NCBI GenBank assembly: GCA_036362985.1
Contig: JAYGXS010000005.1
Span: 54,946,803-55,010,802, forward strand
Direction: 5' to 3'
Origin: Ligula intestinalis
Lineage: Eukaryota > Platyhelminthes > Cestoda > Diphyllobothriidea > Diphyllobothriidae
DNA length: 64,000 nt
Position numbers and translations under genes: made by a program. Below, piece by piece: positions 2,008-58,000 of the stretch (the first letter of the stretch is position 1; each line of letters starts with the position of its first letter). A model generated the notes under the pieces. The model was not told the DNA's origin. It ran no database searches and saw nothing but the letters and a program-made list of their open reading frames with translations.

Positions 2008-4887
2008 TCAGATACCAGGGGGACCCTTTTCAAAGTCCAAAAGTTGTGTGTTTGGGAAGGAGACGGATAACAAGGACTTTATATCTTCTGAAGTTAAGTG
2101 TTTACGTAATTTGACTTTAAAACCTGCTAAGTTAGACGACAGCCTAATTTCGAGGGGAATATTATTCCAGAGGAAGGCATATTTAGAGGCAAAGAAGTGA
2201 GAATGGTTCGAAGTGGAGCTTAAGGGGGGTGTAATAATCCTGGAGGAATTACGGGTGGCATAAGGTCTATCTGCGGGAATGAGAGCATTGATTCGTGGAA
2301 GGTTAGGGGTAGAGTTAACGCGAAAGAGGAAACAGAGGCCCGCTTCGAGTCTTCTGACCCAAAGAAATGTCATGTTCGCTAACTGACATCTCTCCGTATA
2401 AGAAAGCGTGGATCGAGGAAGAGCGAATATTCTGCGAGTAAATACCCTCTGTACATTTTCAATCTTACTGCGGTCTGAAGCATTCATTAGACCAAAGAGG
2501 GGACAGCAGTATTCTAGGATGGGTAGAACATACATGCGATAAAGTTTTAACTTTATTTCCAGCAGGAAGAAATTGTGTGATATAAAACCACATATCTGTG
2601 CAGCCTTCGCAGATATTCGATCGGCATGAGGCGACAATGCTAGTTTATTTGTGTAGCTTAGACCTAAGTCTTTTATAGTGGATCGTTCTAAAATTGGAGT
2701 ATTTTGAAAGACTAGGGGACGAGGAAGCTTGGCGGGACCAAAACACATGAAACTACACTTGGATGGAGAGAATTCCATCTGCCAGGTAGCACTCCAACGT
2801 GAGAGTGTAAGTAGGTCCGCATTTATTTTATCAACGCATATGCTTGCCGTGTCCTTAGAAAACGAGTATATGCATTTTAGGTCGTCTGCATAAATGAGAG
2901 TGTGTGAATTTTTTAGAACAGTCGAAATTTCGTTTATGTATAGAATGAAGAGTAATGGACCCAAGACAGTGCCTTGAAAAACGCCACTCGTGATCAGCTG
3001 AGAAGTGGAGTAACTATTACCCACTAGGACCTTCTGGCTGCGGTTAGACAAGTAGGAACCGATGAAGTCGAGGAGAGGGGGACGGATCCCAATGGCTTCC
3101 AGTTTTACCAGAAGCCGTCTGTGCGGTACCTTGTCGAAGGCTTTGCTCAGGTCAAAGTAGATAACAACCACGGATTGCTGCTCGTTACGGAGGGAAGTGA
3201 CGTGGTTAAGAAAAGCTAAATGACACGTCTCGCATGATCTTCCAGGTAGAAAACCATGCTGCGAGTCACTTAAAAGCTTATTTTTTAGGCAAAAATCGAG
3301 AATTTGATTAAAAATTATCTTCTCCAGAAGTTTAGCTAGGGCCGGGGTTTTATGTACACCGCGGTAGTTATTTATTTCTGAACGAGATCCTGATTTAAAG
3401 ACTGGAAGAATAATGGATGTCTTCCAAGTGTCAGGAAAGTAACCATTTAAGAGATAGACTGAAAATATATGGCTAAGTAATTTGGGAAAGGCCGACACTC
3501 TTTTGATAACTGAATTGGGGATACCATCAGTTCCGGAAGAGTGCGAGTTTTTTAGACAAATTATCTGTTTACGAATTAATTCTATGGAGAAATCAATGTT
3601 TCCGAGAGTATTGTCCGAGTATGGTTGAAACGACGGGACCGGTTCGGATTCTGTCGTAAAATGCTTCGCAAAGAAAGCATTGAATAAGTCAGCCTTATCA
3701 GACTCATCTACTACAAATGTTTTGTTTTCATTAAGCAATGGGGGTATTTCAATTCCTCGTTTTGCGGAGGCCCTACGGCGAAACAGTTGTGCAACCGATT
3801 TTGCAGAGTTTGACTCGCTCAGGGCGCAAGCTTCCCTGTGCTGGTCACGTGCAAGACGAATCTTTGACGCTAATTCGAAGATCTCTGCGATCCTTAGATG
3901 CACAGACAGCGAACTAGTAGATCTATCTTTCAGCTGCCTCCTCAATTTCTTTAGTCTGGGCAAAAGAAAATGAGGGACGGTCGATTCTGGTGTGTAGGGT
4001 TTCGCAATTTTAGTGGGCACAAATTCCAGCATTTTAGTAGAAACGACCGACATGAGTTCAGAAAGATATGCAGCGTCGTTAATGGAGGAGAGGCTCTGCC
4101 AATCTAATGAGTCAAGAAAATTGTTGATTGAGCTAATATCTGCGAGGTCGTACGCATGATAGGTACGACTAGCACTAGCCTTTTCCGTAGAAGGAAGCGG
4201 AAGGCAACAGTGAATTAATGTGTGATCACTTTGGAAGATGTCCTGCTTAAAATCAACGAAGAGAGGGGCAATACCATTAGTGAAAATCAGATCGAGGATA
4301 TGATTCTGTCTTGTTGGGGAACTAACCAGTTGAGACCAGTTAGAAAAATTAATGGTATCCAGGAAAGGCTGAAATCTAGGTGGGCAATAGTTTGAAAGCC
4401 AGTCGATTTCAGGAAAATTAAAATCTCCAGCGATAATTTTAACTTCAAAAGTGGATTCTGAAATAAACTTGAACATTTCACACAAATTTGCATCTTCTTC
4501 AGATGAAGAGTTAGGAGGATTATATATACAACCGATAATCGCCTTTTGCCGGGGCGACAGGATAATAGAGGCGAAACAGTAATTTCCAGAGAAGGACGTG
4601 CTATTTAGATAAAACGGAAAGTGCCTAAATGACGTTCTAATATACAGAAGACAACCACCACCACGCTTATTAATGCGATCGTGACGATAGAAATCATAAT
4701 CGTCTATGATAAGGGAGGAGTCAGAAATGATTGGATGGGTCCAAGATTCTGTTATGCATATAACATCAGGCATCATCTCAAAAGCGATAGCTCGAAGTTG
4801 AGCCATTTTATTTATAACGGACCTGGCATTAAGCACTATGACATCTAGTGTGTTTCGAGTGACAGGAATATGGCTATAGTTATTCAT
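2008..4887 (-). CDS. CR1-like ORF2: APE endonuclease and reverse transcriptase
   Basis: A single intact 959-codon frame. The N-terminal third is an APE-like endonuclease: N-A-R-S near residue 21, ITESW near 45, the GDFNFPEIDW block near 155 and SDHTLI near 220. The reverse transcriptase follows, with SGTDGIPNSV, FDLSKAFDKV, the GVFQGTVLGPLL motif and the catalytic YADD (LIYADDLKC). The protein would nick the target and copy the element's RNA at the nick (target-primed reverse transcription). The start codon overlaps the ORF1 stop as ATGA (4884-4887). No RNase H domain is apparent. All catalytic motifs I can see are present, so the product could be active. The 3' part is duplicated at 5950-6862. 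Confidence 0.92.
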   Translation of the reverse strand: MNNYSHIPVTRNTLDVIVLNARSVINKMAQLRAIAFEMMPDVICITESWTHPIISDSSLIIDDYDFYRHDRINKRGGGCLLYIRTSFRHFPFYLNSTSFSGNYCFASIILSPRQKAIIGCIYNPPNSSSEEDANLCEMFKFISESTFEVKIIAGDFNFPEIDWLSNYCPPRFQPFLDTINFSNWSQLVSSPTRQNHILDLIFTNGIAPLFVDFKQDIFQSDHTLIHCCLPLPSTEKASASRTYHAYDLADISSINNFLDSLDWQSLSSINDAAYLSELMSVVSTKMLEFVPTKIAKPYTPESTVPHFLLPRLKKLRRQLKDRSTSSLSVHLRIAEIFELASKIRLARDQHREACALSESNSAKSVAQLFRRRASAKRGIEIPPLLNENKTFVVDESDKADLFNAFFAKHFTTESEPVPSFQPYSDNTLGNIDFSIELIRKQIICLKNSHSSGTDGIPNSVIKRVSAFPKLLSHIFSVYLLNGYFPDTWKTSIILPVFKSGSRSEINNYRGVHKTPALAKLLEKIIFNQILDFCLKNKLLSDSQHGFLPGRSCETCHLAFLNHVTSLRNEQQSVVVIYFDLSKAFDKVPHRRLLVKLEAIGIRPPLLDFIGSYLSNRSQKVLVGNSYSTSQLITSGVFQGTVLGPLLFILYINEISTVLKNSHTLIYADDLKCIYSFSKDTASICVDKINADLLTLSRWSATWQMEFSPSKCSFMCFGPAKLPRPLVFQNTPILERSTIKDLGLSYTNKLALSPHADRISAKAAQICGFISHNFFLLEIKLKLYRMYVLPILEYCCPLFGLMNASDRSKIENVQRVFTRRIFALPRSTLSYTERCQLANMTFLWVRRLEAGLCFLFRVNSTPNLPRINALIPADRPYATRNSSRIITPPLSSTSNHSHFFASKYAFLWNNIPLEIRLSSNLAGFKVKLRKHLTSEDIKSLLSVSFPNTQLLDFEKGPPGI

Positions 4888-41912: not shown

Positions 41913-44300
41913 TTGGCTTCCGACTTAATTGGCAGTATCACACGCAGGTCGCAACCCAAAAAAATCTTACATAACATGGAGACTTTAGATGCTACAAGTC
42001 CGTTAGCACGAAACGTTTCGCCTCCACCGGATCTCGAACCCGTGTCGCCAAATCTGGTTATTAGCAGTGTTAGCACCTCAGGCAGCCCGGCCACTTCGAC
42101 ACGGGCCCTTGAAAACCATGTTAAGATACGACCAGAAAGTAACTGCCGATATGGCCACTTAGATAATTTTATAAATTCTCCACCTCCCACCAAACGGCCA
42201 AGATGTCTACTACGTTTACCGAAGTTAGATTGTGAGGACTTCGTCCTCCACCAGGAGTTTTCGGAGATGAAGCAGGAACTTTACCACGAGGTAAATAAAC
42301 TGAAACAAGAGATAGCCTATCTAAAAACGCATATTTCTTATACAGCGGTTAAAACAGCCCTTGTCGGCCAAAAACCGGGGGTTAATAAAAGTACATATGC
42401 TCAGATAGCCTCGGCCGGTAAACCTGAAACTCGCATATCATCTACCAAACCAAGTAAACCAGCGGACGTCTCACTCGATCGCAAAGAAACTAAAATAAAT
42501 CCGCAGTCTACGCCATCGTAACTCTGCTCAGGCAGCACTAACAATGATCTGCATTTGCGTCCTAGCGTCACATCGTTGCTTGATGCTGCACTAGAAAGCG
42601 ATGATACAGAGGTCAATAAGATCATGAAGCCAAAAAAGCATAGGGCTACAAAGGCTCGAAAGACTAAATGGGCTAGGAATGCGCAGTCAGCTAACCCAAA
42701 AACCGGCACATCAGGACCCATCAAACCTTTAGTACCGGATACAGATGGCCGCTTGGTCGGAACTCGTGAGCTCGCAACAGATGCACCAGTGAGTCACAAG
42801 CAGAATATAGTTGTAAAAGGGGCTCCAGAGATAGCGTCACCAATTGCACAAGAACGAGTTGACGCTGATATTGACTTGGATTTGGACATGTCTGTCGACA
42901 CGCCTGAAACCTGCATATCGGATCATGTGTCAAGCCCACGGGCTATACCATCGTCACTCGGCTTAAGCGACACTAGCAATTATCGGGATTTGCATCCTAG
43001 CACCACATCGTTGCTAGACTCTGCACAAGAAAGCGATGACCAAGAGTTTGACAAGATCATAACGCAAAAGAGGCATAAGCCTAAGAAAGCCAAACGGTTC
43101 ACGGGTTTGCATTCAGCTTACCCAATAGCCACTACATCAGAACCGCGTGTACCGGATACAATTGCTCCCTCGGCTGAAACACGTGAGCTTGCAACATATG
43201 CCCCATTGAGTCGCAAGCAGAAAATAGTTGTAAAGGGGGCCCCAGAGTCAGAGTCGTCAATTGCACAAGAACGAATTGACCATGACGTGGGTATTATGCG
43301 GGTGTACGCCAAACCGTTGCTAAAACCAGGCGAGTCTTTCCGCATTCTTAAGGCATTTCGAATAGGGAAGGCTCCAACAGCTCCAGAATCAATTTCTCGG
43401 CCACGACCTCTAAAAGTTATTTTAGAAACTGAAGCACAGGCGAAACTCTTGCTAGAGCGCAAACCATCCTTACGGAGTCTGCATTCGCAAGTTTTTTTTC
43501 CAGCTGGATTACGAGTAAAAAGAGCGGAGAAAGATGAGACAGCTAATAATAGAGCTGGAAAAACGGAGATCCAATGGCGAGACAAATCTCAAAATAAGAG
43601 AGGGAAAAATAGTTCAGATCAACAGGACATCGCTCTGGTCGAAGCCGGTAACAGTGACGGCCTAGCTGTCTCGCCACTGAAACCTCAGACATGCCCTCTT
43701 AACTTGGTCGTTTTAAATGCCAGATCACTGATTAATAAAATGCCTCTGCTCAAGACTATGGTTTTCGTCAACCGCCCAGACATTGTTATGGAAACTGAGA
43801 CATGGACATCGGCCTCTGTAGCTGAATCTGAACTCCCTGTTCTAGGCTATTCATGCGTTCGGAACGATCGAAACAGTTGCCGTGGCGGAGAGAGCTGCAT
43901 CTATATTAAGCAGCCACTTGCATTACTCCCGTTGGACTTTCCACAATTCACAGCGGTGGAGGAGAGCTGCTGGCTGCAAGTTGCTCTAAAAAACAAATAC
44001 TCCTTACTTGTTGGCTGTGTTTATCGCCCATCTAATGCCAATGAAGTCTACGATCATTGTCTCTCGCAGGCATTTAATGCCGCAGCTGACTTAAATCTTA
44101 AGTATTGCTTGATTGCAGGCGATTTTAACCTTCCTGACGTGCAATGGTTTCCACCATCCGGTCCTTCAAAGTTCGAGAACTTACTTGAGGCAATAGATAT
44201 CGGCATGTGGGATCAGGTAGTCGATTTTATGACTCGAGGAGAAAACATATTCCACCTATTTTTTAGTAGGGGATGCGAACCACTTCAGTGTCATCCTTAG
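41913..44300 (+). pseudogene. ORF1-like region fused in frame to APE endonuclease
   Basis: One frame from 41913 to 44300 interrupted only by a TAA at 42519-42521. Residues 1-110 are Ser/Pro-rich; a coiled coil follows (FSEMKQELYHEVNKLKQEI, about residues 110-150). Then come two tandem copies of a Ser/Lys-rich block (motifs TSLLD, ESDD, KKHR/KRHK, ETRELAT, KIVVKGAPE, IAQER), then an RRM-like segment (IMRVYAKPLL, FRIGKAP, RPRPLKVILE, LRVKRAE). The endonuclease begins at LNLVVLNARSLINKM and includes the GDFNLPDVQW block. It ends where the frame shifts to 44273-44455. A plausible nucleic-acid-binding ORF1 read through into an endonuclease; one polyprotein or two proteins cannot be decided. Confidence 0.8.
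42419..43285 (+). repeat. Tandem duplication of about 420-480 bp inside ORF1
   Basis: Copy A (42419-42865) and copy B (42900-43285) share CCTGAAACYYGCATATCR at the start and CAATTGCACAAGAACGARTTGAC at the end, with the same order of blocks between. The period is 435 bp at CCATCG (42513 and 42948) and 418 bp at the end, so indels have accumulated. The codon that is TAA in copy A is TCA in copy B, which shows the stop is a later mutation. Confidence 0.85.
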
Positions 44301-44463
44301 ACGCACTTAAGAGTTCAGACCATCTTACAGTTTTTAGTGAACTAGTACTGGAGGCGGATAAAACGTTTTCCCAAAAGTATAGTCTTTATCATGACTTCAG
44401 ATCAGCAAACACGGTGGACCAACTGGCATATCTAAACGCTCTCGACTGGTCTTAATTTTTCCA

Positions 44464-45423
44464 ATGTTTGGATGTAAATGTTTGTACCGATGCACTGTAC
44501 ACCCCATACTTCAAGATGATTTAGGAAACCCCATAGCTGACGCTAAGTTGACCGCCGATAGCTTCAATGCGTTCCTATCCAAAACGTTTAGTGAAAGCTC
44601 GTTCGCTGCACCTCCGGTTATCCAGGCTTGGATGGGTGCCATACCCGAAACCGTAAGTTTTACCGTCTGGGATGTGACTGTAGCCATTCTTCGTTATCGT
44701 CAATCCTATAGTCCAGGACCAGATGGCGTCCCAGTTAGCCTTCTAAAAGCTGAAGCGAATGATATCTTGCCGTCTATTCTTTGTAAGGTATTTAATCTTG
44801 CTCTTGAGAGCGAAACCTTTCATTCGTTTGGGAAGGAATCGCACATAATGCCTATTCGCAAGCATGGCCGATCGACGTCATTGGACAACTTTAGGCCAAT
44901 AAATACACTTCTTGCAGCTTCGAAGATCTTGTAGACCTTGATCAAAGAAAATATGCTGCGTCACTTGACAGAGAACAACCTGCTCAATACAGCTCAACAT
45001 GGCTTCCTCGAGAAACGATCTTGTGACACCTGCCAGCTCTCTTTCTTTGATTATGTGCTGCAATCTAGAGACAGCGGTTTTGCTATTTATAACGTCTATT
45101 TTGATTTTACTAAGGCCTTTGATCGGGTCGATCATAACCTCCTCCCTCTGAAAATGGCCTCCTTCGGCATAGGTAGCAAGCCTCTGAACTTCATATCTTC
45201 CTATTTGGATGCTCGCACACAACGAGTAAAAATTTCCAATGTTATCTCCAACCCTGCGCATGTGAGGAATGGAGTTATACAGGGTAGTGTACTGGGTCCG
45301 CTCCTATTTTGCCTGTTTGTCAACGACGTTTCAGATTGTTTTCAGTATGGCAGACTCTTCATGTACGCTGATGATTTAAAAGTCGCTTATCGATATAAAC
45401 CGGCAGATCGCAACATCGTGTAA
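44464..45423 (+). pseudogene. CR1-like reverse transcriptase, third family
   Basis: Single frame interrupted by one TAG (44935-44937). RT motifs in order: SPGPDGVPVSLL, DNFRPIN, QHGFLEKRSC, YFDFTKAFDRVDH, GVIQGSVLGPLL and the catalytic YADD (MYADDLKVAY). The thumb and C-terminus are missing after NIV at 45420. The frame opens downstream of a short deletion relative to the endonuclease part. Confidence 0.88.
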
Positions 45424-47479: not shown

Positions 47480-48678
47480 GCCAGTGGCAAAGACCGAAAA
47501 AAGGAGGCCCAAGAATAACTTCATGTCTTGGCGAACTTTTTAAAGCCTAGTTTTAATTTGCCTCTTTTCTTGACGCGTCCAGGTAGGCTGCGGCGTCGGA
47601 TCAAGGGCAGCCTAGCAAAGGTCATGAGGCGGCAGACAGAGAACGTATCAAAACCACCTAAGTCTTGGAGGGCCTGAGATATGATCGTGGTACTCTCTCA
47701 GCGAGTGTGGACTGTCTTATTTGAGACAAAGTCGGTGTACTTCAATCGAAGGGTGTTCCTCAAGCAGTAGTGGTCGAATACCTGCAGCTTTCGCTTCAAC
47801 GCGCAAAGCACAGTATTCACATACACAGAGGAGGACTGGTCATGGATGCGCGGTACGCACGGATATTTGTGACGATGGAGATGTCGCGTCAGATCCATAA
47901 ACGCTTTTACAAGATAAACAAATCCAGGCGAGCAACATCGATTCGGGAGACAGTACTATCCCTACTCTGTTCATTCGGTAGCAGCCTCGCCCGAAATATT
48001 TTAAGCTTTCTACTTTCTCAAGTGGACGGTCATGAACCCCCGGGGTGCCTTCTCCCATTCAGGGATGCAGTTCAATAATTGGTTTTTCCGGTATATATGG
48101 ACAAACCAACCAAAGTAGCGACCTCATTCACCTGTGACACGACAGGCTGTAGATCACCAAAGCCAGGGCTAGCCAAATGTACTATCGGCTGAGTCAAGGT
48201 CAGTCAACTGGTGTTTGGGTGCGAACTCACAACCGTTTCTGGGCAGACAGCTACAGGCCGCTTCTGAATGAATCTAAGAATTGTCTCAACTGCCCGATAG
48301 ACGGATGTTTTCAGTCATGGCCACTTGCTTCTTCCTTCATCATCTGCTTGAGGCGTAAGATGGGACCGGATTTCTGTGCTCAAAGTTTTGTTTGACGGAT
48401 TTTCGCTACATTAAGGCGTCTAGCTCGTAGCATTTTGCGCGCAGCTGTGAGGTAAGCTTTCAGGCGTGTGCGAACGAGAACATTCTCAGAACCATCGGCG
48501 TTGCCAGTTTTGGCATCATGCATAGACCTACTATAGTGGACCCAACTACAGAACCTTGGACCAAATAGAGTGTAATCGATCTGACTGGCGGTACGGCCGT
48601 CGTTTTAATACCATGCCTATAGATATTTTGGACGATACTAAAGCATTTGTTTGTGACAAGCAGTCGGTACTGATTAGC
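47480..48678 (-). pseudogene. RTE-like element remnant with internal deletion
   Basis: The minus strand shows an endonuclease/linker end at 48660-48370 (a G-S-E-N-V-L-V-R-T-R-L motif then AARKMLRARRL), and an RT C-terminal part at 48060-47480 (KVESLKYFG, VFDHYCLRNTL, KYTDFVSNKTV). The catalytic RT core between them is gone. The endonuclease part matches 16690-16990. The LTR retrotransposon has inserted immediately at its 5' edge (48679). Confidence 0.6.
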
Positions 48679-48998
48679 TGTCGTGATTGGGATATAGTCG
48701 AGTTATTCAGTACGCAATAGCCGAACAGTCGAGAAGAATGAGAAGTCGAGTACCCTAGAATTGGGCTTTACTCATCTTATAATTGTCGTACACGAACTAA
48801 AAAGGGATAAAGAGCGGTTAGGATTATATAGGCAAACATCAAGCGTTCGTAGGGAGGCAGGGGTGAATGTTAATCAACGAGAGTAAGAAGGTAGGGGTGA
48901 ACGGTAATCAACGAGTGTGATAAGGTAGGGATGAATGTTAATCAACAAGAATGAGCGAAAAGGGGGTGAACGAGTGTCAGATTAGTATCAACACCACA
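48679..48998 (-). repeat. 3' LTR
   Basis: Identical in length to the 5' LTR; in element orientation it runs from TGTGGTGTTG to CACGACA. Preceded in element orientation by a purine tract GGGAAGAA (plus-strand complement at 48999-49006), the expected polypurine tract for plus-strand priming. Confidence 0.93.
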
Positions 48999-49066
48999 TT
49001 CTTCCCGGCCAACAAAAAGGGGCATAATGTTCATAAATCTACTCTAGAGTTTGAGCGGGATAAATC

Positions 49067-50242
49067 CTAAGCATCTCGGTTGCGAAGGCAGTATGGATGG
49101 ACGCGTTGTTGTTGTTTTATTAACGTCTCCAGGTTATGCTCATGTGGGTCGTCTTCATTATGGCCATGATCAGGCGTTGTTACACCTTGGTTGTCAGTAC
49201 AGCCGGTGTTGTTTTCCAGTTTGGCCTTGGGTGATTGGAGCGGCGGAGGTGGAACGGAATTTTCGACTAAGGGAGTGGCCGTCTCCTGATGATGATCACT
49301 GAGATCCTTTTCACCTCTAGGAGCAAGTAGTCGAACAGATACTATCTCTTCTCTGCCATCGTCGAATCGTATATGAGCGTACTGAGGGTTGCACTGGAGT
49401 ATATCAACTTCCTCACCGAGCGGGTCATATTTGGACTGTTGGTTACTTTTCTTCAATAGGACTCGACCAGGGGAAGAGAGCAACATAGAAAGAGTGGTTC
49501 CAGTGGTTGATCTCCGATTATAGGCAAAAATTCTTTCATGTGGCGTCGCGTTAGTGGCGGTACATAAAAGTGATCTAATGGAGTGAAGAGCGTCCAAGAG
49601 GACGGATTCCCAGTGTGTTACAGGCAAATTTCTAGATTTCAAAGCAAGCAAAATGGTCTTCCACAAAGTTTGGTTCAGACGTTCAACTTGTCCGTTTCCT
49701 TGGGGATTATACGGAGTTGTCCTACTCGTCGCCACCCCCCCTATTATGGAAAAATTTTTGTACGTCGTTCGACATAAATGAGGATCCTCGATCGGTGTGT
49801 ACGTATGAAGGAGTTCCGAAGATGGCAAAGAGTTGGCATAAAAATTTAATAATGGTTTCTGCAGATTGATCTGAACAGGCGAATCCAAACGGGAAACGGG
49901 AGTATTCATCAATAATCGTCAGCAGATAACGATTGCGGGTCACAGATGGAAGTGGACCCTTAAAGTCGGGTGACAGCCGCTCGAAGGGTTGAGTGGCCTT
50001 TATTAGCTGACCTTGTGTTTTGAAGAAACGAGGTTGACTTCACAACACGTTGGACATCTTGCAACAACATTACGAATCTCTTCCATCGAAAAGGGTAGAT
50101 TTGTAGCCCGGACAAAGTGTGATAACCGAGAGATCCCAGGATGGCACAGAGATGCGTGTAGTTCCTTCAAATTGACATCCGTTAGCATGGCGCCACAACA
50201 ACTACGGGAAAGAGTATCAGCCAGGTCTGTAAATAATGTCAA
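49067..50242 (-). pseudogene. Integrase of the LTR element
   Basis: Three frames in series. 50242-50040 has the H-H-C-C zinc domain (ELHASLCHPG then ARCPTC). 50040-49740 has the first two acidic residues of the catalytic triad (TIIDEYSRFPF and HTDRGSSF). 49760-49067 has the third (NPQGNGQVERLNQTL) and a C-terminal domain (KYDPLGEEVDILQCNPQYAHIRFDDGREEIVSVRLLAP). The last shift lies in the homopolymer at 49735-49741 and could be an assembly error; the first lies near 50040. Confidence 0.9.
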
Positions 50243-50807
50243 ACTTGAATGGCGATAATTCTAATCTCCAGCGTTCAATCTTTTCATTCTTCACCTTCCC
50301 TTTTTGTTGATTACCATAGATAAAAGCAATAGAACGTTGATCTGTAATTAGTTTAAAATGATTGCAGAGAAGAAAATGTTTCCATTTACGTATGGATTCC
50401 ACTACGGCATACGCTTCTTTCTCGACCGCAGAATGGTGTCGCTCGTTTGGTGATAAACTACGCGAAAAAAATGCTACTGGACGACCATTCTGATTCAGTG
50501 TGGCAGCAATGGCGACGTCTGATGAGTCAGTCTCAACAACCAGTGAAATATTATATTGGACGGTAGCGATCGTGGCTTTCGCAAGTTCTTCCTTAAGTGC
50601 TTCAAATAATTCAAGTACTTCTGGTGGTAGAGGAAACGTTTTATTGTGGATAAGCAGATGGATCTTATCTGAAAAGTGGGATATCCATTGCGAATAGTAA
50701 GCAAACAATCCAACGGCTCGTTGCTGTGACTTTATATCGTTTGGAGCAGCCATCTCACGCAAGGGTTTCAGACGATCTGGATCCGGTCCGATGTTACCTT
50801 TGGACAC
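50217..50807 (-). pseudogene. RT tail and RNase H of the LTR element
   Basis: Same frame as the upstream RT, separated by the single TAA. It starts at the RT end (SKGNIGPDPDRLKPLREM), then RNase H with TDSSDVAIAATL, the acidic E in SAVEKEAYAVVES and TDQRSIAFI. It ends in FDIIYRPG, where the frame breaks just before the conserved A-D-x-L-S-R of the tether. Confidence 0.9.
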
Positions 50808-50828
50808 TTCGTAACCAAGAAGCTTTAT

Positions 50829-52644
50829 TTAATGAGAAGCAATGACGCTCTTTGCTTCATTTAAAGTGAGTCCATATTTTGCGGCAACGTCGAGGAATTT
50901 TTGAAGGTTTGAATTGTGTTCTGTGATGCCGTTTCCACAAATAGTGATATTGTCCACATAAACAAATACATCCTTAAGGTTTTCGCGTGTAATTATATCA
51001 TCAATGGTTCGTTGGAAACAGGCAACTCCGTTGGTGACCCCAAACGGGATTCGACAAAATTGATGCAAACGTCCACAAGCTTCAAAGGCAGTGTATGGTC
51101 TTTCGTCTGCCCGGATAGGTATCTGGTGATACGCACTCTTGAGATCAAGAGTGCTATAAGTGTCGTAGTTGGCAATATTTTCAATCATTTCGTCTATCTT
51201 GGGAGATGGATAGGCATCGAGTAGAGTGTATTTGTTGATCGTCTGGCTATAATCAACAACCATTCGCCTTTTGTGATTTTCAGTGGCTACCTCCAGGACT
51301 TGGGCTCGCCCGGGGGAGGAAGAAGGCTCAATTACTCCATCAAACAAAAGATGACGAATTTCTTCCTGAATAAACCTTTCATCACCGTTAGTGTGTCGAT
51401 GAGATTTTGTTGCGATAGGCTTACAGTCCGGGGTTAGATTAGGAAATAAGCAGGGAGGTTCGACGCATGCGGAAGCAACAGAACAGGGTGAGAATGTAGG
51501 TTTAGGTCCACCAGCAGGAATTTCGACGCTTCTATGTAAGCGAAGAAAGTCATGGCCAAGTAATATGTCGGCACATAAATTTGGCAAGATCGATAGTCTG
51601 AACTTTTCGTAGACGACACCTTTGTATTTAATGGAGACGAAAACGTGTCCCTGTGTGGCGCTCGTTAGAGCGGTAGTAGCCATAGATATTTTGGTGCGAG
51701 AGTGGTAGATTTTCCAATTATTTTTGAGTACTACCGAGGACGAGACGTAGCTCTCCGAGCTACCTGTGTCTATTAAGGCTTCGAAGTTAGCCCCATTGAT
51801 CTGTAGTACAACTACTGCGCTTGAAAGGCAGTCTGGTGCAGTAGCCGATGCGATGGCGGAAATAGTGGGGTGGGTAGAGGAAAGGATCCTTCTGTTTCGC
51901 GATGTCATACAAACCTTTTGGAAGTGTCCCTTTTTGCCACATCCTTTACACAACACGTCGCGTGCGGGGCACTTCGAACGAGAGTGTTTGTCATACCCAC
52001 AAAAGAAACATTTATTGTACGGCGAACTGGAAGCCGTGATGTCCGCAGATTTGTTAGGACTGCACGGAGTTTCGCACACCTCAGTGGTGGCAGTGAATGA
52101 GGTTTTTGAAGGATTTTGATAGGGTAAAGACTGTTTTTCGGCCAATTCCAGAGATCTTGCTCGATCGAACGCTGTTTGAAAATCCAGGGTTTTCTGTTCC
52201 AGCAGTCTTTGTCGAATTTGGTTAGATAAGAGACCACTAATAAAGGCACCTCTCATGGCGTCATCCCGGTTTTGTTGTGCAGTAACTGCTTTGAACTCAC
52301 AGTCTTTAGCCAGAGACTTCATTTTCTGAGCAAACTGATCGAGAGTTTGTCTACCCTCTTGTTTACAGGTCGCCAGAAGGTGTCGGGCGAAGATCTCATT
52401 TTTAGGTGTTGAATATAACTCCTTCAGTGCCTTAATTGCATCTTCGTAAGCGGTGCATTCGTTGATGTACTCCCAAATGGTCGGAGAGACGTAGTGGGTC
52501 AGGACACTGAATTTGTTTGGCTTTAAGCTTTCGATAGTTGTCATAAAGTTCTCGAATGTGCAGAACCAGTGATTTCATTGTTTGGAAGCGTCCGGAGCAT
52601 TCGGATCCACATCAAATCGTTCTGGTTTGAGGAGTCGGTCCATT
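50829..52644 (-). pseudogene. Gag, protease and RT frame of the LTR element
   Basis: The frame opens at an ATG at 52644-52642, 22 nt inside the LTR, is interrupted by TGA at 52577-52575, and is then open from 52544 to a TAA at 50831-50829. It contains a Gag capsid-like part, two zinc knuckles (CFFCGYDKHSRSKC and CKGCGKKGHFQKVC, about 52020-51930), an aspartic protease (ALIDTGSSESYV) and the RT (LLDAYPSPKIDEM, LDLKSAYHQI, RIPFGVTNGVACFQ). The catalytic motif reads YVDN where YVDD is expected (Asn codon at 50949-50951). Gag and Pol are in one frame with no frameshift signal between them. Confidence 0.9.
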
Positions 52645-52649
52645 CTGAG

Positions 52650-52665
52650 TTATAAGATGAGTAAA
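52650..52665 (-). promoter_or_regulatory. Self-complementary primer-binding segment
   Basis: The 16 nt one base inside the 5' LTR are perfectly complementary to 52755-52770 in the same LTR (and the equivalent place in the 3' LTR). Elements of the Tf1/sushi group prime reverse transcription from the 5' end of their own RNA through just such a match. No match to a tRNA 3' end (TGG next to the LTR) is present. Confidence 0.7.
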
Positions 52666-52666
52666 T

Positions 52667-52986
52667 TGTCGTGATTGGGATATAGTCGAGTTCTTCAGTA
52701 CGCAATAGCCGAACAGTCGAGAAGAATGAGAAGTCGAGTACCCTAGAATTGGGCTTTACTCATCTTATAATTGTCGTACACGAACTAAAAAGGGATAAAG
52801 AGCGGTTAGGATTATATAGGCAAACATCAAGCGTTCGTAGGGAGGCAGGGGTGAATGTTAATCAACGAGTGTAAGAAGGTAGGGGTGAACGGTAATCAAC
52901 GAGTGTGATAAGGTAGGGATAAATGTTAATCAACAAGAATGAGCGAAAAGGGGGTGAACGAGTGTCAGATTAGTATCAACACCACA
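52667..52986 (-). repeat. 5' LTR
   Basis: Contains, in element orientation, TATATAA about 50 bp upstream of TTATAAGATGAGTAAA (complement of 52755-52770). Four internal direct repeats of the form GTTAATCAACRAG are visible (plus-strand 52857-52940). It is followed directly by the short leader and gag start. No tRNA primer-type TGG follows its end. Confidence 0.93.
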
Positions 52987-53254
52987 CAGCCCTTGGGTGT
53001 ACATAGAAAGGGTTACATTTGCTTGAAATTTGTGCAATATCCAAATGTTTATACTGCTACAGAGCAGACCATTGTCATGCTAGATGCGTCGCGTGCATCA
53101 ACTCTTTGCTTTCCTCAACTTGAGCCGCTGGTATAAGCAGATATTCCCGACGCACTATCCAATAATTATTTATACTTTCCCATTCAAGTTGAACAATTCT
53201 ATATCATTAATGTCCATTAGAATTCCAAATTTAAATGATCTTATTATTTTTCAG

Positions 53255-55064
53255 TGGCCACTAAACGACCATGCAGCAGACGCAAGTTGCACCTGACGCG
53301 GCCTCGATGAATCCAGTAAACGGTCAACTGCCGACTGCATCTGCCCCGACTTTACCGATGCCTAATTCTATGATGTCCCAGCAGATGCCCTCACAGTTCC
53401 CGCCGAACCAAGGCCTTCCATCTCAGGGCTTCAGTTCAGTGTCAATGAGTAGTCACAACAATTCATTTGGCCCCTCGCCTCTCTCAGTGTCGCAAATGCA
53501 AGGTGGCGTGCCACCTAATGTCATAATCGGTCGCACTCCGCCCTTGCATGCACCCAGTTTTGAGGCCCCAATGCAACCATACCCAAGTCAATATGGTTTT
53601 ACTCACGCCCAGGGCCAACAGGGTCCACCTCCTAATACCTCTGTGCCTCCTCCAGGGCTATCTTTCGTTAAAAGTCAGCTGGTTCAATTACGTGCGCAGA
53701 TAAATGCCTATAAACTGTTGTCCAAGTCGCAGCCTGTCCCAGAAAACATTCTTCTTGCTGCAGAAGGTCGTATTCAGCCTACGGTCTACCCAACACCAAA
53801 TAATTTGCCAGGAGCCCAACAAATGCAGAGACCTCCACCAAACCCTTCACAAGGTCCGCTCCTTAGTCAGAACTGCCAAATGTCGACTCCACCAGGGCCA
53901 GTAACAACCTACCAACACCCTCCACTGCCGAATTACGGCCCACCACAGGCCATGGGCAATCGCCGTGTCGGTGTCCCACCCGTGGGTTACCCTCCTTACG
54001 CCGGTCCCTCACCGAATGCCGCATTTCTAGCATCAGCAGCTCCAAGAACCGGACGCAGCCGGGTGGTGCCTCTGCAGCGTCCTCAGGGTTTAGACCCGGT
54101 CGAGTTACTAAAAGAGCGTGAGCAACGCATTCAGTCAAGAATAGCTCAGAGGATTAAGGAAATCTCAGGGCTTAGCCTTTTTTCCACCCCCGAGCAACGC
54201 GTTCAACTTCAAATTGAGCTGCGTTCACTACGCCTGCTCAATTTTCAGCGCCAACTAAGACAAGATGTCGTGTCGGCAATGCGTCGCGATACCAGCCTTG
54301 AAACTGCTCTGAATATAAAGGCTTATCGCAGACCCAAAAAGCAGAACCTGCGGGAAGCTCGCTATACAGAGAAACTGGAGCGGCAGATGAAACATGAACA
54401 GGACAAACGCCGCCGCCAAAAACACCAGGAATTCCTTACTGCTGTTCTCAGTCATGGTCGTGATTTCCGTGAGTACCACCGCGCCGTCAACAACAAACTG
54501 TCAAAGATTAATAAGGCAATACTTAATGCGGACCGCGACAGGCGTCGAGAACAACAGCGCATCGATAGAGAACGTATGCGCCGCCTGATGGAGGAAGATG
54601 ACACTGGTTACCGTAATCTGATAGATGAGAAGAAGAATAAACGTCTGCACTACTTGTTAACGCAAACTGATGAATTCATAGATAATCTCAGCAAGTTAGT
54701 TAAAGACCACAAACGGGAGCAGAATAAAATGCGTGTCTGTGAGTTGCATGAGAGACGGAGGGAGGCTCAGGAGTGCGCTATCCAGCATGCCTGCGCTAAG
54801 TACCAAGCCATTGCTTCAGAGATGATTGCCAAGGGGCAACCACCACCCAGCTTCCTGGCCACACTTCCTGTCGATTTGTACAGCGACGAACTTCTGCAGG
54901 CGGGCCGTGACCTATTAAATGGCAAAATGCCCACACTAAGTTCACCCTGGCCGGCGGTGCGCATCCCCGTGACGAACATCAGTACCAAGGAGACAATAAC
55001 TGACGAGGCTGCACCATTGGCACAAGAACTCCATTCGTGGCTTCAAGAGCATCCTGGTTGGGAG
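53255..55064 (+). CDS. SMARCA4: SMARCA4/BRM exon 1: QLQ, HSA, start of BRK
   Basis: A good acceptor (ttatttttcag, ending 53254) lies 16 bp before the ATG at 53271, so there is an upstream non-coding exon or a spliced leader. Donor gtaggt at 55065, phase 0. The N-terminus is a low-complexity Pro/Met/Gln/Ser region; QLQ reads [22 protein letters not shown] is a long basic helix ([20 protein letters not shown] onward). It ends GWE within the BRK domain. Confidence 0.93.
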
Positions 55065-58000
55065 GTAGGTGGAGGCGACTCCAAACTTCTGTTTCCGATT
55101 TTTTATCCCGAATACTTGCACCAGAAAAACTGTATAAATAATCGGCAACATCATGTTAATTCATGCAGATAATCGGACAGCAGGAACGATTTGAAATAGT
55201 ACATACAGTACTCCTTTTTGCGCAGTTGCGCAACAAGGAACAATGCTTTAAACATTGTGTAATTTAAAAAGACAGATTGAGATGTGTAATCAAAAAAAAG
55301 AGGTCCTTCTTGGTAGGCAGACTCTAATTAGACAACATCATTCCTATAGGTAGTATTAGGAGTCGTGTTCAAATAAACGTGAGAAGAGTTCGGTTTTTGC
55401 AGTGTAGGTCTAGCGCCTTCTTCACTTTAACGAATCTGCGCTTGAAGATGACTTGCGTCACGCCAGTCGGTCGATCCGCGCAATTGGACTAGCCTTTGGC
55501 GCTTGGAGGTAGAGTCGATACTGAGCTATCTTTACTCCAGGCAATTCCGCACATTCTTCACTGTAGTAAACCCAAAGGGGTGTAGAACTATTGCGTGTTG
55601 AACAATGAGGCTCAGACCGTTTCTCTCTATGTAACTCTGTTCTCCTTCGAAGTTTACAGGGGCATTTGCACCATCACTCATATATGTGAACTCTAATCTT
55701 CCGTGTGAAACCTAAGATAAAGGCTTTACTCCACTTAGTCGCATTTTCCGTCGACTTTAGCTGTACGGGTCATTAACAGGAGGTATATAAATGGGGTCGA
55801 TCCAACTTGCCCACTAGCTAACCAAACATGTATTGGCTTAACACGGCGCCCTAGTTGTTTTGGTTTGACCGATTTTCATCGGACGGGATAACTCGACTGC
55901 TAGGACTGCATTTTAGTCTTCCGTCAATAAGTGTTGCGTGCCCACTGACCGTCTTTTGTGAGTGATACAAGTTTCGTGAGTTGGGGTCTTTCTAGTTCAC
56001 GTGCGGAGACAAGGTTAAGTGGCACGTGCAGACATAGATGCAGCTTTCAATCCGCCTAGGTGGTCCTATAAACGGGATGGATGCGGAGTATGGTACCAGA
56101 AACTTCTTGCTGCTCATTGTCATAACTCATCACGCTATTGGCGTCGCTTTTACCGCCTAAGTGGCGAAGTTACTTATAGAGCTTGAACTTAAAAAAGTCA
56201 TTGCAAAGGTAAGAGAGAACTGTGCCTTCTATGTGATGGCGACCCGCTGACTACCTGAACTGTTTTGGCTTTTTTGTTGGGTTATAAGATAGTAGTAGTA
56301 GTAGTAGTAGTATAATTAGTAGTAGTAGAATTAGTAGTAGCAGAATTAGTAGTAGTAGTAGTAGAATTAGTAGTAGTAGTAGTAGAATTAGTAGTAGTAG
56401 TAGGGAATCTAACAACTGCATATGCATGCTGTAATTGCTTGAAACATGTCGATGTAGTGTCTAGCTAGAGGCGTTGACAAACCCCACTTGCGCTCATGAT
56501 TCTTCCATTTAACCACATTTAGGACTACTCTGAACACGCTCTCACCAGGGTGAACATCAGTCAGTTTTAAAGGTGGACCTAGTTCATTCCCGACGGGCGT
56601 TTTTATATGCGATAGTCTTTTGCCGTTTAAGTCGTGGTGCAGAATTAAAGACTAGTGTTACAGTCAACTACGTAGTCAGGCTTATCCATAGGTCTCAGAA
56701 GACTGTTCGTCGCAGGCGTATTTGTTGGGCTTTTTTTATCTCGATAAAACATCAACTGCATCTGCAAAGTCCAGTAATCCGGTGAGGACACGTGTGTTTT
56801 ATCGAGTTACCATTGGACTATATTTGAACTATGAAACTATATGTAATCGCATAGCAGTCGAAAGGCTTCGCAGTCAACGTCCTAATGTGTATGATTTCAA
56901 AAACAATTTTTGGTAGCAATAATTATGTTTGCTAGGTTTAGCGCTCCCACCTTTTTCAGTCCATTATGTCTTTGGTCTCGTCCACTGTTTCTCTTTGCGA
57001 GACGAGTCATCTGGGTTTTTTTCCTGCTTACGCATTAGATCGCGCCCACATATGAAAACGGAGCACTGGCTCCAGAGTTGGTGGAGGACTTAGTAGTAGC
57101 GCCAAAAAAGACAGAAGAGGACGATGACGACACTGAAAATCCTGTTGTGCGTGGGACTGAAGACGACGAGTACAGCCGACGGGGCGAGTCAGAAGCCAAT
57201 GCACCCCAGTCTTATTATACTCTGGCACATCAAATTCGTGAGGAAGTTAAGGAACAAGCATCAATCCTAATCAATGGCAAGCTAAAGGAGTACCAGATGC
57301 GTGGTTTGGAGTGGCTCGTGTCGCTCTACAACAACAATCTTAACGGCATCCTGGCAGACGAGATGGGCCTGGGCAAGACCATTCAGACCATTGGTCTTAT
57401 TACCTACTTGATGGAACGGAAACGTGTGAATGGACCTTACCTGATCATCGTCCCTCTCTCGTAAGCTGTCATTTAAGATCATGAATGTTTTTCCAGTAAT
57501 CTCTCCTATACACAATTTCACAGCTAGCTTTAATGATTGGCTACCTTTTTAAAATTTCATAATTGCACGTACCCTTTCCGCCTTTAACCTTCAAGGTCAA
57601 TATATTCTTCATTCTTCCGGCATCTTCACGATAATGTGGGCACATTTGAGCCATTTTTAATCGTCTTAATAACTTAAACTGACGTTGACTTTGGTTTTCA
57701 GCACAGAGTCTTGTTAAAATTTGCATTGTTTCCAAACTTTTTAGTGTTATGTCTAACTGGGCCTTGGAGTTCGACAAATGGAGCCCAAGCGTGAAGAAAA
57801 TTCTTTACAAGGGCTCACCGCAGGCTCGTCGTATGCTCAACAACCAGATAAAAGCCTCGAAATTCAACGTCCTCCTGACCACCTACGAGTACATAATTAA
57901 GGACAAGGCCTCTCTGTCAAAGGTGAGCTCGCACTTCAATTGCCTTACTAAGTTATTCATACAATGTCTACTTTCGTTTTCTGCTATATCTCTCATTGCT

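Follow-up and report, generated by a model that had tools for sequence, protein, structure and literature searches.

Replication of the Metaviridae is given as tRNA-primed in the ICTV profile (PMC7879559). Within the 64,000-nt stretch of Ligula intestinalis DNA analysed here (the window), an LTR retrotransposon on the minus strand has no TGG adjoining its 5′ LTR, and the question that this locus raises is how such an element would begin reverse transcription. The element is a Ty3-like (Metaviridae/Gypsy) LTR retrotransposon: its LTRs have TG...CA ends, its domain order is gag-PR-RT-RH-IN, with Pfam domains found in order in its pieces, and Pfam finds the integrase core in two distant relatives, L001 and L002. 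Alignment of the LTRs with each other places the 5′ LTR at 52986-52667, with ends identical in other genome copies, and the 3′ LTR at 48998-48679; both are 320 bp, run from TGTGGTG to CACGACA and are unlike at 3 positions. Past the 5′ LTR follow a 1-nt spacer (A, 52666), the putative primer binding site (PBS; TTTACTCATCTTATAA, 52650-52665) and the gag start codon (52641-52643, MDRLLKPERFDVDP...), where most printed homologs start alike. An open frame at 50832-52574 covers the gag remainder, the protease and the first part of RT (Pfam RVT_1, gag-asp_proteas and a weak Retrotrans_gag match); by eye, its gag remainder holds two CX2CX4HX4C (CCHC) motifs. A frame with RNase H (Pfam RT_RNaseH and RT_RNaseH_2) lies at 50220-50828 and the C-terminal integrase part at 49070-49918, in which no chromodomain was detected. 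All these features are on the minus strand, as is the purine run GGGAAGAA (48999-49006) just before the 3′ LTR, a putative polypurine tract. The window copy is broken, with an in-frame stop early in gag (seen by eye); its integrase gene is broken as well, since the upstream end of the frame at 49070-49918 cannot be aligned with relatives. No matching target repeat was found flanking this copy, and scans with Rfam (48600-53100) and ARAGORN (whole window) were empty.

The 5′ LTR edge lies 279 bp from the frame of a SMARCA4/BRG1 orthologue (53265-55172, plus strand), which points away from the element and whose nearest named relatives come from Fasciola and Schistosoma; further SNF2-like frames, noted by eye, reach beyond it to 58310. 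Elsewhere in the window, endonuclease-like and reverse-transcriptase-like frames at 42522-45423 (plus strand) were judged by eye to be probably a broken non-LTR element, and a TAG/TAGAATTAG microsatellite array occupies 56290-56415.

We then examined the leader beside the 5′ LTR. Starting 1 nt past the LTR end, the 16 nt at 52665-52650 are the exact complement of 52770-52755 within the LTR; read on the plus strand, 52650-52665 is TTATAAGATGAGTAAA, the exact reverse complement of 52755-52770. The perfect 16-nt match named in the original prediction is thus real and belongs to an element on the minus strand. A scan of the window for this 16-mer gave three exact matches, at 52650, at 52755 in the 5′ LTR and at 48767 in the 3′ LTR, plus two more places with 3 mismatches. 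The 3′ LTR copy of the segment (48782-48767) has no adjoining PBS. Dinucleotide-preserving shuffles of the LTR never gave a match of at least 16 nt beginning 0-5 nt from its end (0 of 5000; longest 9), which bears out the earlier view that a chance origin is very unlikely. As background, 12 of 3434 positions sampled from the window reached at least 10 nt and one reached at least 13 nt. A chance palindrome was rejected on the shuffles and on two further families. Equally correct was the claim that no TGG adjoins the LTR: the first one is at nt 25, inside the gag start ATGG. Priming at this TGGACC was rejected, as it marks the gag start and neither L001 nor L002 has it at that place. The 9-mer ACGACAATT occurs twice, once at the 5′ edge of the LTR segment (52777-52769) and once across the LTR/PBS border (52672-52664).

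The DNA-level comparison comprises three families, the window element, L001 (JAAESD010000556.1) and L002 (JABSRZ010000027.1). The latter two are contigs in bacterial MAGs, with 45% and 42% protein identity, and look like circularised one-LTR forms of eukaryotic elements that contaminate the MAG assemblies. As each has a single LTR, their LTR ends (TG...CA) were set by eye, with starts TGTCATA in L001 and TGTTCTG in L002. In L001, a 14-nt pairing joins 372-385 (TATTGTTGATTAAA) to 437-450 across 51 nt; the PBS lies 1 nt past the apparent LTR end (CTCTACA), with the gag ATG a short way after it. In L002, 3275-3287 (TAATGTAATAAAA) and 3338-3350 form 13 pairs across a gap of 50 nt, with the PBS again 1 nt past the apparent LTR end, AATACTACA. 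The primer edge of L002 carries ACAATTATAA, in common with the window element. The observed lengths were matched by 0 of 5000 shuffles for L001 (longest 11) and 0 of 5000 for L002 (longest 12). When the three elements are aligned from the 3′ end of the primer, 9 of the 14 pair columns vary and every pair is Watson-Crick. The stem between primer and PBS is in the minimum-energy fold of the window element, L001 and L002 (z -3.98, -5.82 and -5.55), and the first TGG after the LTR falls at nt 25, 30 and 52, respectively. Two Ty3-like elements with LTR ends set by eye served as rough controls: L063 has no inverted arms of at least 12 nt, and in L132 the one 12-nt pair lies some 290 nt from the LTR end. 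Pairing kept across three families with differing primer sequences thus supports the self-priming predicted for the element.

To follow the pairing within the family, we turned to copies in the host genome. An LTR DNA search of the assembly (644 Mb, 2377 contigs) gave at least 40 matches, these being the best 40 of 262 candidates scored, and a 30-letter LTR motif with up to 3 mismatches occurs at 194 places. Forty-five rows were compared, namely 15 of the 18 loci of one search (the other 3 being LTRs without leader) and 30 loci of another; removal of 4 places fetched twice left 41 copies. Among these, L048 and L049 count as two, being identical over the compared stretch but on two contigs. All 16 pairs are uninterrupted in 20 of the 41 copies. 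The full 16 pairs are absent in 21, mostly through one to a few unpaired changes or through indels (an extra base in the PBS of L031 and L032; deletions in L020, L023 and L050). Where one arm has changed, the other carries no compensating change, so that the family shows conservation and no covariation, as expected of decaying copies. The original prediction had proposed that the two 16-mers should covary among copies of the element; covariation is present between families and does not extend to the genome copies. The PBS continues with TT (as in TTATAATT) in 19 copies, which makes an 18-nt duplex possible, and with CT in 21, the window copy included; in the remaining copy this place is deleted. 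All 18 pairs are present in 11 of the 41 copies. The TT type is perhaps younger than the CT type, many TT copies having open frames, and copies with long open frames do exist in the host genome. Within ~8 nt past the LTR, a TGG was seen in 0 of the 41 copies. That the two segments pair, where they do so, that the family conserves this and that two relatives preserve it through sequence change can all be read directly from the sequences.

Two of the 41 copies, L043 (G000 C125 near 13559) and L058 (G000 C10 near 11619665), one of each PBS type (TT and CT), have the whole 89-nt stretch between primer and PBS inverted; in L043 the LTR in the 3′ position has the normal order. These inversions could stem from chromosomal inversion between the arms or from a fold-back of the minus-strand end during reverse transcription. 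Fold-back fits both copies because their junction of primer and U5 complement is the one expected of self-primed synthesis; the inversions are compatible with self-priming and not decisive. L004 (G000 C1:51361080-51362306) is a 1.23-kb internally deleted form with two LTRs, a PBS as in the window and the 5-bp repeat TTCGT, probably a non-autonomous derivative. L010 (G000 C1:11522962-11523282) is a solo LTR without leader, flanked by 5-bp repeats ACCCC; beside this insertion, GGTTCAAACCCC resembles a tRNA B box. No second family of the group was found in the host genome, a search with L001 as the query leading largely to the same places among the best candidates scored.

Together, these data make it very likely that the window element primes its own reverse transcription in the manner of Tf1/sushi elements. 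In the proposed course, a 5′ part of the RNA (16-18 nt, ending ...GAGUAAA) would pair with the PBS 1 nt past the LTR. The putative self-primer segment spans 52755-52772 on the minus strand, with 16 nt (52770-52755) complementary to the PBS here and 18 nt (from 52772) in another subfamily. The RNA would then be cut at the 3′ end of the paired segment, presumably by the element's own RNase H as in Tf1, and the freed 3′-OH extended through U5; the resulting minus strong-stop DNA would move to the 3′ LTR by way of the short remainder of R after the primer. In this course, cleavage and extension as well as the RNA ends and the strand transfer are inferred.

Where the RNA starts bears on how the primer would be presented. 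A TATATAA box with a putative promoter role lies in U3 at 52812-52818 (minus strand). The original prediction had put it about 50 bp upstream, which agrees with the 48 nt found between it and 52770, and had let the transcript start near the complementary segment. The usual distance from TATA to start is ~30 nt, and this spacing suggests a start at ~52786-52788, ~16 nt upstream of the primer, so that the primer may be near the RNA 5′ end and not at the very end, unlike in Tf1. We give roughly even chances to this variant of self-priming, in which the RNA would start near 52786 and carry a 5′ tail of ~16 nt before an internal primer. It draws on the TATATAA at 52818, the start-like TTAGTT at 52788 and the usual TATA spacing; against it, the 18-nt duplex of one subfamily begins at a C-A step (between ACGAC and AATT) that would suit a start at 52772, and no TATA was seen by eye at the corresponding place in L001 or L002. 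The N-termini of homologs were also checked for a translated leader, and nearly all printed ones start at the gag ATG.

The 3′ end of the primer has a feature of its own. We scanned the three LTRs for 12 hexamers resembling poly(A) signals. In the window LTR, AGTAAA is the only one of the 12 variants present; it forms the last six bases of the primer (52755-52760, minus strand), and its role as a signal is putative. The LTR of L002 likewise has a single hexamer, AATAAA, ending one base short of the primer end, and in L001 ATTAAA makes up the last six primer bases, with an extra AATAAA at the start of U3. Directly after the primer, all three have a possible small hairpin (CCC..GGG in the window element, CCTA..TAGG and TGG..CCA in the others), which the minimum-energy fold includes in L001 and L002 and not in the window element. 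The window sequence at this place, GCCCAATTCTAGGG (52741-52754, minus strand), resembles GCCTAACTCTAGG of L001, and the corresponding place in L002 is TGGTTCTATCCA.

These features raise the tentative idea, which we consider possible though clearly on the less probable side, that one duplex does two jobs: it would supply the primer and at the same time lock the poly(A) signal of the 5′ LTR, leaving the 3′ LTR copy free to end the transcript. Hiding would be limited to the 5′ LTR because the PBS complement adjoins that LTR only. The transcript would then end just after the primer, leaving a short remainder of R for strand transfer. As we saw the overlap only in hindsight, in three AT-rich segments, we put it forward as a hypothesis. 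Processed copies, which would mark the poly(A) site, were sought as GCCCAATTCTAGGG with A8 following within 20 nt, and 0 matches came up. If true, the dual role would be a compact answer to the need to skip the first poly(A) signal and use the second, and it would run through a widespread group of animal Ty3-like elements outside the chromoviruses; because primer and hexamer overlap, 5′ poly(A) suppression could be tested directly and cheaply.

The same overlap could be read differently, with the duplex serving mainly to hide the 5′ LTR poly(A) signal (or to control packaging or translation) and the primer being a tRNA, or a fragment of one, that cannot be recognised from a TGG. The hexamer at the end of the primer segment in all three elements and the complement beside the 5′ LTR alone would suit such a role. 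We regard this account as improbable, however, as the duplex starts 1 nt past the (apparent) LTR end in all three, exactly where a primer must sit, a fixed position that signal hiding would not need, and the first TGG comes only at nt 25, 30 and 52. That the inverted repeat is instead an accident of the family, such as a fixed palindrome without a role in a dead lineage, might be argued from the broken window copy (gag stop and integrase frame) and the 21 of 41 copies lacking the full 16 pairs, but it has hardly any probability left and is largely refuted by two other families that hold the pairing at the same place with differing sequences, by copies with long open frames and by the subfamily with the longer, 18-nt duplex.

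A 581-aa piece of the self-priming candidate, from the gag remainder to RT, has 745 protein relatives (E ≤ 0.001) among 7991 scored candidates. Named hosts among the 120 listed of these 745 include two prawns, a mantis shrimp, two spiders, a snail, a sea slug, two corals, Hydra, a sea cucumber, a butterfly, a moth, a leafhopper and Trichinella; for the L002 integrase, with 1301 relatives, the 120 listed add Nematostella, stingrays, a crinoid and a rotifer. The RT tree has 36 rows (34 of the group and two others), with 12 of 33 inner branches unresolved. The window element stands with a snail, a sea slug and other relatives (10 rows, 95/88). L001 and L002 fall together with other relatives, a coral among them (5 rows, 82/89). 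As the window element and L001/L002 thus belong to different subgroups, the trait is probably old in the group. The RT active site reads YxDN or FxDN in place of YxDD in 19 of the 28 group rows with a readable motif, the other 9 having xDD, and the motif was not found in 6 further rows; the second aspartate is thus often replaced in the group. No chromodomain was found in the integrase pieces of the window element, L001 and L002 at E values up to 1, and PF00385 was present on 0 of the 120 listed integrase relatives (of 1301). By this defining feature the group would not be a Tf1/sushi chromovirus, though it appears to work like one. In the same way, PBS, Gag signature and target-site duplication (TSD) would set the group apart from the CsRn1 type; both assignments are by features. 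The group may already have a name, for example Cigr or one of the MolGy clades (clade names from PMC8556966).

Searches of viral and plasmid collections yielded no further member. Three protein-pattern scans of IMG/VR viral contigs found no relative, and 63 viral contigs from a DNA motif scan were taken as chance matches, with 0 of 63 matching the gag-RT piece by tblastn. Among phages and plasmids, one search gave no match and others gave weak ones (2 records in one, 48 with 20 listed in another, and 1 in a third), with at most 33% identity among those listed; three weakly matching records were examined and none was taken as a group member. Two plasmid records considered as chromovirus comparators were rejected as Ty1/copia. 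Among the plasmid-filed records, NZ_CP087956.1 (a Wolbachia record from a moth) encodes Ty3-like LTR retrotransposon proteins, and NZ_CP115302.1 and NZ_CP115454.1 (soil actinomycete) encode Ty1/copia proteins.

Among Ty3-like elements, it is the Tf1/sushi group for which self-priming has been reported (PMC6317226, PMC4600332, PMC6934838). The reports cover fungal, plant (Tcn1) and vertebrate Tf1/sushi elements together with the plant copia lineage TAR (PMC6317226, PMC4600332, PMC6934838, PMC7175516), and flatworm elements have been described with tRNA sites (PMC2582038, PMC4558846). A literature search, in which subscription papers were thinly covered, found self-priming described neither for a flatworm nor for an animal Ty3-like group outside Tf1/sushi. 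Small RNAs from tRNA 3′ ends are said to target tRNA-primed endogenous retroviruses of mammals (PMC7472051). If the group self-primes throughout, the mechanism arose or persisted outside the chromoviruses and is common in animals, the listed relatives coming from cnidarians, molluscs, arthropods, echinoderms, Trichinella nematodes, a rotifer and stingrays; such elements would be freed from the host tRNA pool and from small RNAs of tRNA 3′ ends.

We finally compared the element with known systems. CsRn1-type elements (CsRn1, PwRn1) are described with a tRNA-Trp PBS, a CHCC Gag and a 4-bp TSD (PMC2582038). The original prediction had used them as its tRNA-primed comparison, and for their primer this is correct; the contrast is one between groups, since by its features the window element would not be of the CsRn1 type. 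Both are Ty3-like, and the LTR start TGTGGTG fits the CsRN1 5′ motif TGTGGYG, whereas the LTR end CACGACA is unlike the CsRN1 3′ motif MSYYAMA, as these motifs are quoted (PMC3601003). The window element also differs in having no TGG beside the LTR, two CCHC motifs in Gag and, in the only two copies where they could be read, 5-bp repeats (TTCGT in L004, ACCCC in L010) in place of a 4-bp TSD. In the tapeworm elements lennie and ta-TRIM, the PBS lies 4 nt from the LTR and complements tRNA-Leu over 8-9 nt (PMC4558846); they share with our element the status of flatworm LTR elements and differ in this tRNA-Leu type of PBS. The Mag-like, Cigr and MolGy clades resemble it as animal Ty3-like elements (PMC8556966). 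The comparator L063, labelled Mag-like by eye, has no inverted arms of at least 12 nt and a TGG run that looks tRNA-type.

For the plant Ty1/copia TAR lineage (Houba, Osr-1), self-priming outside Tf1/sushi is predicted (PMC6317226). TAR is thus alike in self-priming outside Tf1/sushi and different in being Ty1/copia and from plants. The Tf1/sushi elements (among them Tf1, Tf2, Tj1, Maggy, Skippy, Cft-1, Tcn1 and vertebrate sushi) are self-primed and filed as chromoviruses. In Tf1, pairing with the PBS involves the first 11 nt of the RNA, and the RNase H cut falls between nt 11 and 12 (PMC7175516). The likeness to this group is that the PBS complements a segment of the element's own 5′ LTR and RNA, with no TGG site of the tRNA type. 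The group described here differs in that the pairing is 13-18 nt long and possibly not at the very 5′ end, in that no chromodomain was detected, and perhaps in that the primer 3′ end of the window element, L001 and L002 coincides with a hexamer resembling a poly(A) signal.
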